From NCBI GenBank assembly GCA_013215905.1, contig JABSQI010000126.1:1-5529 (forward strand): a stretch of DNA of 5,529 bases, given 5' to 3'. The notes beneath the pieces were generated by a model. The model made no database searches. It worked only from the letters and a program-made list of their open reading frames with translations, and was not told the origin of the DNA. Of this stretch, positions 901 through 5,529 are shown piece after piece (positions within the stretch are counted from its first letter, which is position 1; each line of letters starts with the position of its first letter). The DNA is from Legionellales bacterium (GTDB lineage Bacteria > Pseudomonadota > Gammaproteobacteria > PIVX01). Made by a program: the position numbers and the translations under genes.

Positions 901-1047
901 TTAGTCATCCCCACTGCCAACAGTACCACAAGGGTGTGCAACATTAACTGTATCAGCGCCATCTTCTACTACTACATCTTTATTAGATGCAAACAATGAT
1001 AATGGCATTGCCAAGCATAGCATTAATATTATGAATGTTTTTTTCAT
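901..1047 (-). CDS. Small exported peptide, 48 aa, with N-terminal signal peptide
   Basis: I do not recognise this family. The ATG at 1045-1047 follows GAGG (1053-1056) with a 5-nt spacer, the best ribosome binding site in the window attached to a start codon; the stop is TAA at 901-903. The protein begins MKKTF, continues with a hydrophobic core to about residue 19, and has a typical signal peptidase I site, LSLFA|SN, after residue 20. The predicted mature peptide has 28 residues, is acidic (six D/E against one K and one H), and contains a single cysteine in the tail HPCGTVGSGDD. The last 60 bases are 50% G+C (30 of 60), far above the surroundings, which suggests selected coding sequence. 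The gene lies 188 bp downstream of the large regulator in the same direction, with a palindrome in the gap. It may be a secreted signal, a small effector or toxin, or a periplasmic small protein. Existence of the gene is fairly sure; function is not. Confidence 0.8.
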   Translation of the reverse strand: MKKTFIILMLCLAMPLSLFASNKDVVVEDGADTVNVAHPCGTVGSGDD

Positions 1048-1064
1048 ATTTTCCTCACTTTTTG

Positions 1065-1070
1065 TTTATA
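1065..1070 (-). promoter_or_regulatory. Candidate -10 box of the small peptide gene
   Basis: On the minus strand this reads TATAAA, 5 of 6 to the -10 consensus. A start near 1058 would give an 11-nt leader that just includes the Shine-Dalgarno. The sequence 17 bp upstream (ATAAGG, inside the palindrome) is a poor -35 box, which would fit an activator-dependent or repressible promoter. TATA-like hexamers are common in this DNA, so support is weak. Confidence 0.3.
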
Positions 1071-1080
1071 AAACCGTCTT

Positions 1081-1107
1081 TATTTTACCTTATAATAAGA
1101 TAAAATA
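1081..1107. promoter_or_regulatory. 27-bp near-perfect palindrome, probable operator
   Basis: The arms are 13 bp around one central base (1094) and match at 12 of 13 positions, with outer arms TATTTTA and TAAAATA. The only mismatch (1088 C / 1100 A) becomes a G-U pair in minus-strand RNA. The site lies 33 bp upstream of the small peptide's ATG and next to a possible -10 box. No T-run follows it on the minus strand, so it does not look like a terminator of the large gene. A dimeric DNA-binding protein is the simplest user; the LuxR-type protein encoded just upstream is an obvious but untested candidate. Confidence 0.5.
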
Positions 1108-1235
1108 TTGCTATTTGTTATTTTAGTTTAATAAATAATTTCAAATTATATGTAATTAACTTATTATTTTTTTTGTAAAACATACTTCATTTTATGTGCA
1201 TATATATTATCAACCTAATTACCACCTTAACAGAT

Positions 1236-4200
1236 CTAAATTTGACTTAATTTCAATTCCAAAGTAGTTATATTTTTCTGGTGATTTTTTTTAACATTAT
1301 TATCTTTTATACTAATTAATACCTTTTTGGCAATTACTAATGCTTGTTCATATTGTTTCCTAGATTCTTTTATTTGTCTATTATCTTCATAAGCTTGCCC
1401 AAGCAGGTAATGATAGCGTGCGGTAACATGATATTTACTTCCGAATATCAACTTTATTATTTTCAAAGCTGATTCATAATATGTGATAGCTTTTATAGTA
1501 TTGGTCTTTTTTATTTTGGGCCATTCCCAGGCAGGAGTATAATCAACAGCCATAACCACGTTTATTCTGTCTTTATAATACGCAGATAGAATATTATAAG
1601 CTCTTTGAATATGTTGCAATGCTATATCATAACTACCCATTAGTTCATTCGCCATTCCCATAGTTAATAATGAACTACCTAAGGAAACATGCTCATAGGG
1701 TTTATAGAAACATTTTCTAATAGCAATATCTTTTTTAAAATATTTTATAGAATCAGCATAATTCCCTAAACAAAATTCTGCCAACCCTAATCCTTGGAAT
1801 ACTTGTGCCATTTTAATATGCTTTGGATTTTGATAATAATTTTCCAAATTATCTAAGATTTCTGTAAATAGCTGTTTAGCAACTTGATAGTTCCCAACAC
1901 TCCATTCCAAAATAGCCAAATTTTGTAAAGAGATAAGTGATAAACTTTCATTTACATTTTCATCTGACTTTTCTGTAATAAGGAAAACTTTTTTTAATAT
2001 ATTTCTAGATTTTTCATATTTACCAGCATACAACTCAATTATGGCAATGGCATTTAAAATATAAGCTATTTTTTCACTATTAATATTAGCATCATATTTT
2101 TCATTTATTTCTAAAGCTTTTTTAAATAATTGCTTTGCAGCATCGAAATATCCAAAATAAAAATCAACTGAACCCAAACCATGCAAAATGCTAGCTATTT
2201 TAGCATGAGGTGTGTTTTTATAATGGCTCTCACCAATATCTAGTGCCTTTTTGTAAAATTGTTTAGCCTGTATATAACCACCAAATCCATTTTTTAACTC
2301 TACCTGACCTAAATTATTTAAAGTGTCAATTAATTCTATGTGATTATTATTTTTATAATGATGTTTTTTTATCTCTAATACTCTTTGATAATAGTTTTCA
2401 GCGTAATCATAGTTAGAACGTTTCAAATTCAAAGAAGCTAATTTATTTAATATATTTACTAATTTGATGTGATTGTGAATTTTATATATTTTTTGTTGTA
2501 TTAGCATAGAATTTAAGAATAACTCATGAGCAAGATCAAACATCCCAAAGTGTCTAGCAACATCTCCATATTTGTTCAATAAAGAGCTAGTATCCAGGGT
2601 ATCTGGCATATATAGATATAGCATTTTAATATGAGGCAACCATTTCCTAGCATTAAACCAAATCTCTTTTTTACCTGTATTTAAATTCTTTACGGCAGCA
2701 TTAGCTAATTTTATAGCCTTATTGACCCAAATAGATTTCTTATCAATTTTTAGCCTTAATGCTTCCTGTAACAAAGCATGAATCTTAAATGAACTCCTAT
2801 CATCGCTCACGGTAATTAACGAATGTTCACGTAGTTCCTTGATTGCATCTGCCCTCTTCTCTGCAGGCAAAAAATTAAAAATTTTCCATTTTATATCTTC
2901 TGAAGCAAGATAAGATGAAATAAATAATATTTCCTTTGCTTCTTTACTTAATTTTTCTAGTGATATAGTTAATATGCTCCATAGTGTCTGTTTATAATCT
3001 TCTGTTTCTTCTGGTATTATATCTAGATATTTCCTCTTTTTATTATTATATAATTCTAGATAATCACTAATATTTGAGCGTTGTCTTATATATCCTACAG
3101 CTTGCCCTAAAGCTAATGGATAATAACTCAACAGCTTAATCAATTTTTTTATATTTTGTTCTTTCTCATTAGATAAATGTTGCTTTACAAAAGCTATCGC
3201 CTCTTCCTTAGTAAATTCATCTAATTCTAATGAGTAATCTGTCCAGCTCTGACTTCTAGAACTTATCAGCACATGTTTTACTACATTAACAGGAAATTGA
3301 TTATTTATATTTTTTAAATAAATTTGAATATCTTTTTTTTGAGAGACATTATCTAAAATAAATAATATCTTATTCCTTTTATAATTACCCAATAGTTTTT
3401 CATGAACTATTTTTCTAATAGATACAGAGTCTAAGTTGACTACTTCAATACCTAGTTTTTTTGCAAATTCACTATATGAGCTATCTATATTACTTGATGT
3501 GCTTGAGTTTACGCATAGGACAGTATCATATTCTTTATCCTCTATTGATCTATAGGCATACTCATTCAATAATTGAGTTTTACCAATTCCACCACTACCT
3601 ACTATAGCTTGTGTAACAGTACCTATGCTGTGTTTATTCAAATTGTTCTTTATCTGACTAATTGCATTTTCGCGACCTATAAAATTAATATTTCTTGAAG
3701 GCAAATTATAAGCTAATATCGTGTTTGCTTTCCCATGAATATCTTTACTATTTGCAGAAAATAATGAGAAATTTACTATTGGCTGTAGATATATATACCA
3801 GCCAAACATCAAAATAGCTAAGCTAATAGATAAGAACCAAAAATTCTGTGAAATGTCTTTTTGCAATGAATTATTTGGTAATTGTTCATCAGTATCCTTA
3901 TGATTATCTATACCAGATTCAGTTTCAAAACTAATTGCTATATCTATTGAACCTAGAACATCTAGCTCTTTATTTATCCTATCAATCTCACTATAATTTT
4001 TAATTAAATATTTAATTATGAAATGATAAAAATCTTTCTTCTTCTCGACATCATAAAAGAGAACGCTGGAGTCTTTCAATTTTGCATCATTATTCTTATC
4101 AAAACAAATAAAAATAATATTATTTCTTGCATTTCCCATATATTTTTTAAAATATTCTATCTCCCCAATATCATTCGTTAGTAACAAACCTAATCTTTGC

Positions 4201-4655
4201 ATATTTGAACTAACACAATAATCTATCATCTTCTGCAAGCTGTTACTCTCTTCCATCTTTATATTTAGAAGTTCAAAAGACTTACAAATACTATTTGTTT
4301 CTGGATTATTTATTAATTTAGGACTTACATTGTAAAAACAAGTTATATTTAGTATTGAAAGAGTATGACTAATTACTTTTGCTGACTTCTCATATTGATA
4401 ATCCAGATAGCGTTTATTAAAATATTGTTTTAATTTTGTTATCTTTTTATATTTTGCAATAAAAGATGATATCTCTTTCTTGCTAGTGGCTTTTATTTTC
4501 CTCTTTATGTTATCTATATGGGTATTTATAGTTTTAGGAGATGATCCCAATATTGAGCCAATCACTTTTGCCTGTGTTATATTGCAAGACAGGCAACTCA
4601 GAATTTTAAACTCTGACTCCGTAAAATGTATATTGTTTATGATGTATCCCTTCAT
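1236..4655 (-). CDS. LuxR-HTH / membrane segment / NB-ARC / TPR signal-transduction regulator, 1139 aa
   Basis: Probable transcription regulator of the STAND NTPase type. Residues 10-70 form a LuxR/GerE-like helix-turn-helix; the recognition helix is around 39-54 (SPKTINTHIDNIKRKI). Residues 90-225 look alpha/beta and I cannot assign them. Residues 272-294 are strongly hydrophobic, one possible membrane segment. The NB-ARC-type module spans about 322-640: FIGRE at 325-329, Walker A GSGGIGKT at 353-360, a Walker-B-like LFILDNV at 431-437, a sensor-like LISSR at 463-467, YPLAL at 512-516 and an MHD-like IHALLQ at 625-630. From about 689 to 1112 run roughly ten TPR units, most with an exact 43-residue period, the usual ligand- or partner-binding part of such proteins. 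An in-frame TAA directly precedes the ATG (4656-4658), so the N-terminus cannot be longer. There is no Shine-Dalgarno, but a promoter lies immediately upstream. The stop is TAG. Domains are clear; target genes and ligand are unknown. Confidence 0.96.
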   Translation of the reverse strand: MKGYIINNIHFTESEFKILSCLSCNITQAKVIGSILGSSPKTINTHIDNIKRKIKATSKKEISSFIAKYKKITKLKQYFNKRYLDYQYEKSAKVISHTLSILNITCFYNVSPKLINNPETNSICKSFELLNIKMEESNSLQKMIDYCVSSNMQRLGLLLTNDIGEIEYFKKYMGNARNNIIFICFDKNNDAKLKDSSVLFYDVEKKKDFYHFIIKYLIKNYSEIDRINKELDVLGSIDIAISFETESGIDNHKDTDEQLPNNSLQKDISQNFWFLSISLAILMFGWYIYLQPIVNFSLFSANSKDIHGKANTILAYNLPSRNINFIGRENAISQIKNNLNKHSIGTVTQAIVGSGGIGKTQLLNEYAYRSIEDKEYDTVLCVNSSTSSNIDSSYSEFAKKLGIEVVNLDSVSIRKIVHEKLLGNYKRNKILFILDNVSQKKDIQIYLKNINNQFPVNVVKHVLISSRSQSWTDYSLELDEFTKEEAIAFVKQHLSNEKEQNIKKLIKLLSYYPLALGQAVGYIRQRSNISDYLELYNNKKRKYLDIIPEETEDYKQTLWSILTISLEKLSKEAKEILFISSYLASEDIKWKIFNFLPAEKRADAIKELREHSLITVSDDRSSFKIHALLQEALRLKIDKKSIWVNKAIKLANAAVKNLNTGKKEIWFNARKWLPHIKMLYLYMPDTLDTSSLLNKYGDVARHFGMFDLAHELFLNSMLIQQKIYKIHNHIKLVNILNKLASLNLKRSNYDYAENYYQRVLEIKKHHYKNNNHIELIDTLNNLGQVELKNGFGGYIQAKQFYKKALDIGESHYKNTPHAKIASILHGLGSVDFYFGYFDAAKQLFKKALEINEKYDANINSEKIAYILNAIAIIELYAGKYEKSRNILKKVFLITEKSDENVNESLSLISLQNLAILEWSVGNYQVAKQLFTEILDNLENYYQNPKHIKMAQVFQGLGLAEFCLGNYADSIKYFKKDIAIRKCFYKPYEHVSLGSSLLTMGMANELMGSYDIALQHIQRAYNILSAYYKDRINVVMAVDYTPAWEWPKIKKTNTIKAITYYESALKIIKLIFGSKYHVTARYHYLLGQAYEDNRQIKESRKQYEQALVIAKKVLISIKDNNVKKNHQKNITTLELKLSQI

Positions 4656-4741: not shown

Positions 4742-5453
4742 ATTTATAAATGCTTAAATAACATCACGTAACCACAAATATTAAACACAAATTAATTACC
4801 TAAGTATGTTTTTAGGTAGAAAAAACAACAAATTAAATAAATAAAACAAGTATAATTTTTTCAAACACTAAAGTTTTTAGAAGCTTTACAGTATCCATTG
4901 AGTAAATGTAATCGCGCTCTAAACCAAAATGATTAGAGCGCTTAGATAATAAAGAGTTGGGAGATTTTTTTTATTGTTTTTTCAAACAGTATATTTATTA
5001 TAAAAAGCGTCCATGCTTAACATGTCATCCTTGCGGTTAAACTCTTTTATGTGCATGCTAACATAATAAAATATAATAGTGCAATCTACATTGTTACTTA
5101 GGTTTGTACAAAATACTTAGTTAGTTGTATTTTCTTATATTATTTTTATATTGTTAAATATTCGATTTTAAAGCGATTAGGTTAACATTTACAATCATTC
5201 AACAGCTATTACACATTTTGTGAGAAAAGTAATTAATTTTATCATTTCTTCTTTAATTTATTTCTAAAAATGTATTTACTAAATTTAAATCTATTCTTAA
5301 AGATGAAATATATAAGCAGTAAATTTATCTTTGTTAGAACATCTGAAATTATTGAAGATATACTTTTCTAGCAAAACCCATAGAAATTATTTTGAAGATT
5401 ATGACTCTAAATATATACACATATAGAATATAATAATTTTAATGTGTAGATAT
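4742..5453. other. Non-coding region upstream of the regulator
   Basis: About 700 bp of AT-rich DNA without a supportable gene. It holds a 7-bp inverted repeat (4797-4803 with 4812-4818), the strong hairpin at 4914-4941, and an imperfect direct repeat CATGCTTAACAT / CATGCTAACAT at 5012-5023 and 5054-5064. A 33-residue frame at 5270-5371 (plus) lacks a ribosome binding site and shows no recognisable content. This may be a graveyard of older genes next to the mobile-element end on its right. Confidence 0.5.
4914..4941. repeat. Strong GC-containing hairpin (orphan terminator-like inverted repeat)
   Basis: GCGCTCTAA (4914-4922) pairs perfectly over 9 bp with TTAGAGCGC (4933-4941) across a 10-nt loop. 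It is the most stable local hairpin in the window. On the plus strand a run of 8 T (4965-4972) follows, but 23 nt after the stem, too far for a standard intrinsic terminator. The minus strand has no T-run after it. It may be a decayed terminator of a lost plus-strand gene, or a protein-binding dyad. Confidence 0.45.
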
Positions 5454-5529
5454 TGTAAAGCCCCCATTTTTAGGACAGTTCATAACTGGAATTTCATAGC
5501 TTAAATTATACTCAATTAATACTCCTCAT
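5454..5529 (-). mobile_element. Partial insertion sequence end, IS3-family-like, continuing past the right edge
   Basis: The segment starting TGTAAAGCCCCC at 5454 and continuing ATTTTTAGGACAGTT has the look of IS3-family terminal repeats (TG, then a C-run, then A/T, then GGACA). Read from the right edge on the minus strand, one frame gives Glu-Glu-Tyr then TAA, and another runs open as NLSYEIPVMNCPKNGGF through the terminus. Both resemble the C-terminal tail of an IS3 OrfB transposase, possibly split by a frameshift or stop. This would make it the right end of an element whose body lies outside the window. Only 76 bp are visible, so the family call rests on the terminus alone. Confidence 0.45.

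Follow-up and report, generated by a model that had tools for sequence, protein, structure and literature searches.

In Streptomyces, AfsR, a protein with helix-turn-helix (HTH), NB-ARC, and tetratricopeptide repeat (TPR) parts, is a direct activator of afsS, a small gene next to its own (PMC10972967). In FxSxx-type systems, AP-ATPase/TPR proteins are accompanied by small processed peptides (PMC7159879). In PH0952, resting ADP-bound forms are held by sensor contacts and the inducer drives multimerization (PMC6468293), MalT is a transcription regulator (PMC10427625), and the membership criteria applied here for RRNPP systems (Rap-Phr, NprR-NprX, PlcR-PapR, AimR-AimP) are those of PMC10075063. 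Here, we describe a gene pair on a 5,529-nucleotide stretch of DNA from a Legionellales bacterium (contig JABSQI010000126.1; this whole stretch is called the window below), in which a 1,139-residue LuxR/STAND/TPR regulator is followed by a 48-residue peptide with a putative signal sequence. Judged from sequence, the two genes, the domains of the regulator, the recurrence of the pair in a second genome, and protein-level constraint on the peptide are all present. We read the regulator, with a probability of roughly 40%, as a membrane-tethered STAND protein whose ligand would be its own exported peptide.

The window regulator resembles PH0952 and MalT in that an NB-ARC-type switch is followed by a TPR superhelix. 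The LuxR HTH of MalT is C-terminal, after the sensor. By contrast, the window HTH is N-terminal (amino acids [aa] 5-67) and is joined by an alpha/beta domain, a hydrophobic segment, and an adjoining peptide gene, and we found no C-terminal LuxR HTH of the MalT/LAL kind. AfsR-AfsS and other large SARPs share the order of DNA-binding head, NB-ARC, and TPR, as well as a small adjacent gene. They differ in that the window head is LuxR-type, a hydrophobic segment is present, and the small product bears a signal sequence; the head matched GerE instead of the OmpR-like plus BTAD arrangement of SARP/AfsR proteins, and Trans_reg_C reached only 12.7 bits on it (E 0.14). The likeness to RRNPP systems lies in a signal-bearing small propeptide (48 aa, within the 10-100 aa range) beside a TPR regulator, with the two genes 188 bp apart in the window and one convergent gene between them in the second genome. 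By a crude custom signal-sequence rule, the peptide may also be Sec-secreted. However, the window receptor has 1,139 aa and an NTPase instead of 250-500 aa, and its relatives are not Firmicutes; given its size, we do not count it as an RRNPP member. FxSxx-COOH systems likewise have a small peptide gene alongside an NB-ARC/TPR protein, and their TPR protein model (NF040586) gave 202.4 bits over aa 318-1025, below its 300-bit cut-off (best of seven relatives tested, 271 bits in P0003). Unlike them, the window has no radical-SAM or other gene, and the peptide does not end in FxSxx. The original prediction named Rap, PlcR, and NprR, Firmicutes proteins that lack NB-ARC, as known TPR receptors of exported peptides, and it overlooked both AfsR-afsS and the FxSxx-type systems. 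Among the open-licence papers listed, screened by title and the opening of the abstract, we found no work on a system of the present kind, and a search combining NB-ARC, pheromone, TPR, and quorum likewise returned none.

Both window genes lie on the minus strand, the regulator at 4655-1236 and the peptide gene at 1047-901. The earlier description of a 1,139-residue protein with DNA-binding, NTP-switch, and TPR parts held up, as the open reading frame (ORF) matched the Pfam families GerE (aa 28-62, 28.2 bits, cut-off 23.5), NB-ARC (aa 329-545, 43.1 bits, cut-off 23.5), and TPR_12 (six stretches, 158.8 bits), with TPRs also seen in the structure model. The LuxR-type HTH occupies 4455-4643, and the NB-ARC NTPase core (aa 314-552) occupies 3000-3716, with the P-loop GSGGIGKT at 3576-3599. 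A winged-helix-like part (aa 553-640) and the TPR superhelix (aa 641-1138) follow at 1242-2999. G353, G355, G356, G358, K359, and D435 were invariant in 11 of 11 aligned sequences. The best Foldseek match was 6mfv (E 1e-12), which we take to be PH0952, a STAND protein with a TPR sensor. The P-loop NTPase with NB-ARC motifs, the winged helix, and the sensor repeats place the protein among STAND (NB-ARC) NTPases.

What that description had missed was an alpha/beta domain after the HTH, a hydrophobic segment, and a TPR tree that differs from that of the rest of the protein. The alpha/beta domain (aa 105-220, 3996-4343) has a receiver-like or cobalamin-binding-like fold; the cobalamin-binding domain tied with the receiver in the fold comparison, and Foldseek returned nothing at E 0.001 or better for this part, with unrelated enzymes ranked first. 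No conserved phospho-acceptor Asp was seen by eye in the alignment of this domain, and its assignment as a receiver is tentative.

The peptide gene also conformed to what had been claimed for it, being an ORF on the same strand as the regulator with a signal-like start; a ribosome-binding site was seen in addition. In the signal-like part (aa 1-20, 988-1047), as judged by the custom rule, an MKK n-region leads into a hydrophobic core and then a cleavage-like site between LFA and SN, and the predicted mature part has 28 aa (904-987). Upstream lies GTGAGGAAAATATG, and a Shine-Dalgarno-like GTGAGG precedes the ATG at 1053-1058. A single-sequence search of 5.8 billion proteins found only the peptide itself, in a cluster that spans two contigs, of which only the window contig was seen. 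Viral contigs held no relative of the peptide, plasmids gave no significant match (best E 3), and the AimP family matched weakly (13.6 bits, cut-off 35, E 0.059).

The evidence that carries most weight came from Glo_16, a 3.1-Mb metagenome-assembled genome with the best five loci of our genome scan and the only genome returned when the scan was extended to its order. A tblastn search of Glo_16 with the window peptide (E up to 10) gave a single match, at C560 28151-28279 (E 4.9e-8). It corresponds to a 46-aa ORF (L002 14420-14560) with its own Shine-Dalgarno sequence, AAGAGGAAAT, located 1.0 kb past the stop of the P0004 gene on the same strand; P0004 is 44% identical to the window regulator. 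Of 46 residues, 19 are common to both peptides; 10 of these fall among the 20 of the signal part and 9 among the 26 of the mature part, with SN-D-VV-G and a Cys-Gly (Cys40-Gly41 in the window peptide) among those shared. Their mature parts aligned better than 4,999 of 5,000 shuffles. Over 46 codons, the proportion of nonsynonymous differences was 0.32 vs. 0.68 for synonymous ones, which indicates constraint on the protein, with the caveat that two sequences were compared and the synonymous value is near saturation. When the two peptides were combined into a profile, the search recovered nothing beyond them from its 2 candidates, and the contigs of P0003 and P0005-P0009 were outside its reach.

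To count such neighbors, we used a rule (35-60 aa, ATG, signal-like start, and Shine-Dalgarno sequence) that was written after both peptides were known. It returned no ORF in 400 kb of Glo_16 background, one in the window, and one beside the Glo_16 relative, so that one of seven regulator neighborhoods in Glo_16 was positive. An earlier, looser rule, which did not need a Shine-Dalgarno sequence, had picked out seven ORFs around five Glo_16 regulators, at distances of up to 3 kb, and only the C560 peptide among them had one. If one match were placed at random, the chance of landing within 2 kb of any of the seven regulators (~28 kb in 3.1 Mb) would be near 1%. No peptide was seen without a regulator nearby, in line with what had been expected, as both known peptides adjoin one; this search was insensitive, and the second contig of the peptide cluster was unseen.

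In a full-length tree of 17 rows, nine form a 100/100 clade with three branches (the window quartet, 83/86; the P0004 quartet, 84/87; and L001), the order of which is not fixed. The peptide is present in two of the three members of this clade with readable flanks, and its carriers fall in different quartets; L001, on a 10-kb contig, has none. Outside the clade, the peptide was found beside none of seven regulators, five being Glo_16 rows in the tree and two being plasmid loci of Candidatus Megaera polyxenophila that are not in the tree. Most simply, the pair would be ancient in this clade, with L001 having lost or separated it. It may instead have been gained after L001 split off, or gained twice.

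We compared trees of aa 1-640 and of the TPRs (641-1139) in eight rows, with the tested groups named after the trees were seen, and the two trees disagreed. P0005 and P0009 grouped with 100/100 support in the TPR tree, and this grouping was rejected in the N-terminal part (approximately unbiased test, p 0.0005). The group of the window, P0003, and P0009 was rejected in the TPR part (p 1e-9). For the window with P0004, the N-terminal part rejected the grouping (p 4.6e-6) and the TPR part did not (p 0.088); the two stand apart in both part trees, with weak support in the TPR tree (70/63). The full-length tree therefore averages two histories. As a plain reading of these trees, TPR sensors appear to have been exchanged between HTH/NB-ARC heads, which would fit a specificity module. 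There is a hint that this exchange tracks the peptide. The window TPRs are closer to those of P0004 than to those of the nearest relative, P0003, and P0004 had the top TPR/rest ratio in 1,288 of 2,000 column bootstraps, which is no more than a hint of co-variation.

The hydrophobic segment (aa 272-290, 3786-3842) is probably membrane-spanning or tethering. All 19 of the 19 family members scanned have a hydrophobic stretch of 19-24 residues that begins 69-88 residues ahead of the P-loop, according to a hydropathy scan that kept the highest-scoring stretch within a fixed range (19-residue mean hydropathy 1.5-3.2). These members were the window regulator, P0003-P0012, six further Glo_16 paralogs, and two Megaera plasmid proteins; the rows L004 and L115 were used without an HTH head. 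The structure model has a lone helix at 271-289 flanked by low-confidence linkers. Within 15 residues of the segment, Lys and Arg sum to 54 on its N side and to 37 on its C side, which points mildly to an N-terminus in the cytoplasm. Set against a ToxR/CadC-like layout (cytoplasmic HTH, one span, and periplasmic sensor), the charges suggest N-in, but the sensor side has an intact P-loop. A single span would put the NTPase and sensor outside the cytoplasm, where ATP is not expected. If there is no single span, the segment would have to act as a tether or be re-entrant. Wherever both were seen, it is odd to find an HTH on one side of a single hydrophobic segment and an intact P-loop on the other; this topology is a puzzle for the family, apart from the peptide.

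With these elements, the ligand reading can be stated as a mechanism. The LuxR-type head and alpha/beta domain, joined through the hydrophobic segment to a STAND ATP/ADP switch and TPR sensor, would make a membrane-associated one-component regulator that forms a two-gene sensing unit with the peptide. The small gene would encode a Sec-exported propeptide, the C-terminal part of which would be the cognate ligand. By binding in the TPR superhelix, the peptide would lift autoinhibition so that ADP is exchanged for ATP, a switch proposed by analogy with PH0952 and MalT. The protein may then multimerize and so bring its HTH heads together at target promoters, with that of the peptide itself probably among them. 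One OppA-like gene in Glo_16 and an adjoining permease-like ORF (by eye) make reimport of the peptide possible there; no PTR2 peptide importer was matched in that genome. A pheromone-receptor function is no more than plausible.

The original prediction of a peptide-sensing pair stands insofar as the pair recurs in Glo_16, but the pair is not universal and the step from neighbors to ligand and receptor is inference. If homologs regularly carried such a downstream frame, it should have been common; instead, it lay beside only two of the ten regulators with readable flanks (the window and C560 in Glo_16), and the expectation failed for the wide family while two of three holds within the clade. 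The fold does not decide the matter either. The Rap/NprR pheromone receptors made up 13 of the 50 structural matches listed for the TPR part, but APPBP2 was a better match, and LGN and MalT domain III were about equal, so the fold alone does not select a peptide ligand. Our odds rest mainly on the recurrence of the pair.

Somewhat less probable, though still a serious possibility, is that the regulator senses something else and the adjacent peptide is a regulated output, as in AfsR-afsS, where the layout is the same (PMC10972967). The AfsR model does touch the TPR part of the regulator (33.1 bits, cut-off 1430). In Glo_16, the gene before the peptide is convergent, so the peptide must have its own promoter, and a strong terminator-like hairpin lies after the peptide gene (z -4.3, 0 of 200 shuffles). 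A palindrome between the window genes, noted earlier, does exist as a near-perfect 27-bp candidate operator on the minus strand upstream of the peptide gene (1081-1107), and it overlaps a weak promoter-like match at 1121-1092 (9 of 12). However, it is only moderately unusual, since one as good arose in 9 of 500 dinucleotide-shuffled versions of the 188-bp gap, and promoter-like sites in the window were not above chance (49 vs. 43.4 +/- 7.1 in shuffles). No operator common to the window and Glo_16 was found; the upstream regions align poorly, and the best palindrome in the Glo_16 gap has 14 bp (74 of 500 shuffles as good), with no counterpart of the 27-bp one. The signal sequence on the small window product also counts against this parallel. 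The ligand and adjacent-output readings are close and are not mutually exclusive.

We consider it rather improbable that the peptide is instead a small secreted effector or a ribosomally synthesized and post-translationally modified peptide (RiPP-like), made by an enzyme such as the YcaO-like protein of Glo_16 and controlled by the regulator. The convergent 290-aa gene between P0004 and the peptide in Glo_16 (L002:13400-14272, minus strand) shows three YcaO-like blocks in order by eye and is the sole copy found there with its own sequence; both peptides contain Cys-Gly, and FxSxx-type systems offer a parallel in their AP-ATPase/TPR proteins with small processed peptides (PMC7159879). On the other hand, the YcaO match, the better of two weak ones in Glo_16, fell below its cut-off (17.0 bits, E 0.004, cut-off 25.7), the blocks were left unaligned by MAFFT, and the protein had no NCBIfam match, PDB match, or plasmid or viral relative. 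YcaO substrates are typically not Sec-exported, and the flanks of the window pair (900 and 874 bp) contain no YcaO-like gene. We keep this gene as a lead toward a modified peptide. A slimmer chance is left for mere neighbors, the peptide being an unrelated secreted small protein, since six of seven Glo_16 regulators have no peptide, there are two instances in all, and spacing differs with a gene intervening in Glo_16, but the sole peptide match in the 3.1 Mb of Glo_16 lies only 1.0 kb away from a regulator that belongs to the same clade as that of the window.

Other features of these loci were recorded alongside the pair. Apart from the pair, the longest ORF of the window (89 aa) is antisense to the start of the regulator, and it is the only frame above 54 aa in the flanks (900 bp downstream and 874 bp upstream); positions 1-900 and 4750-5529 are long stretches with none of that length. 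Searches of the window for tRNAs, Rfam families, and tandem repeats found none, nor was a terminator-like site found there. An inverted repeat, GCGCTCTAA / TTAGAGCGC, lies at 4914-4941 within the upstream flank. In Glo_16, a phospholipase A2-like gene with a signal-like start (L002:8873-9415, minus strand; PLA2G12 29.2 bits, cut-off 34) lies upstream of the regulator. Five tandem ORFs of 178-217 aa directly follow another family regulator (L003:11936-14959), at least four of them alike by eye and with signal-like starts. Ten other Glo_16 ORFs (L072-L077, L080, L081, L083, and L085; 258-287 aa stop to stop) have a C-terminal LuxR-type HTH. The Megaera plasmids (L123 and L124), from a Rickettsiales ciliate symbiont, encode proteins that share the N-terminal LuxR HTH, hydrophobic segment, and P-loop NTPase with the window regulator but are only 23-24% identical to it, and the 8.9 and 7.7 kb read there held no comparable peptide. 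On L124, a 618-aa HTH/TPR gene is followed by three short annotated TPR genes. An anti-phage STAND role is possible but unsupported, as PADLOC gave one match to a TPR model (25.4 bits) along with three matches below 15 bits. A phage search found no relative of the regulator, and viral contigs held five distant NB-ARC/TPR loci.

In its fullest form, the proposal would be one of Gram-negative peptide signaling. A LuxR/STAND/TPR receptor tethered to the membrane would sense a Sec-exported peptide of its own, which an enzyme may have modified; TPR sensors would be exchanged between DNA-binding heads, and the receptor may act across the membrane, against the rule that STAND switches are cytoplasmic. 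We consider this whole combination to be unlikely. To our knowledge, few bacterial NB-ARC/TPR proteins have a known natural ligand. If the peptide is the ligand, the pair would be a peptide-receptor system that uses a STAND switch and lies outside Firmicutes, and a natural ligand would be named for a bacterial NB-ARC/TPR protein.

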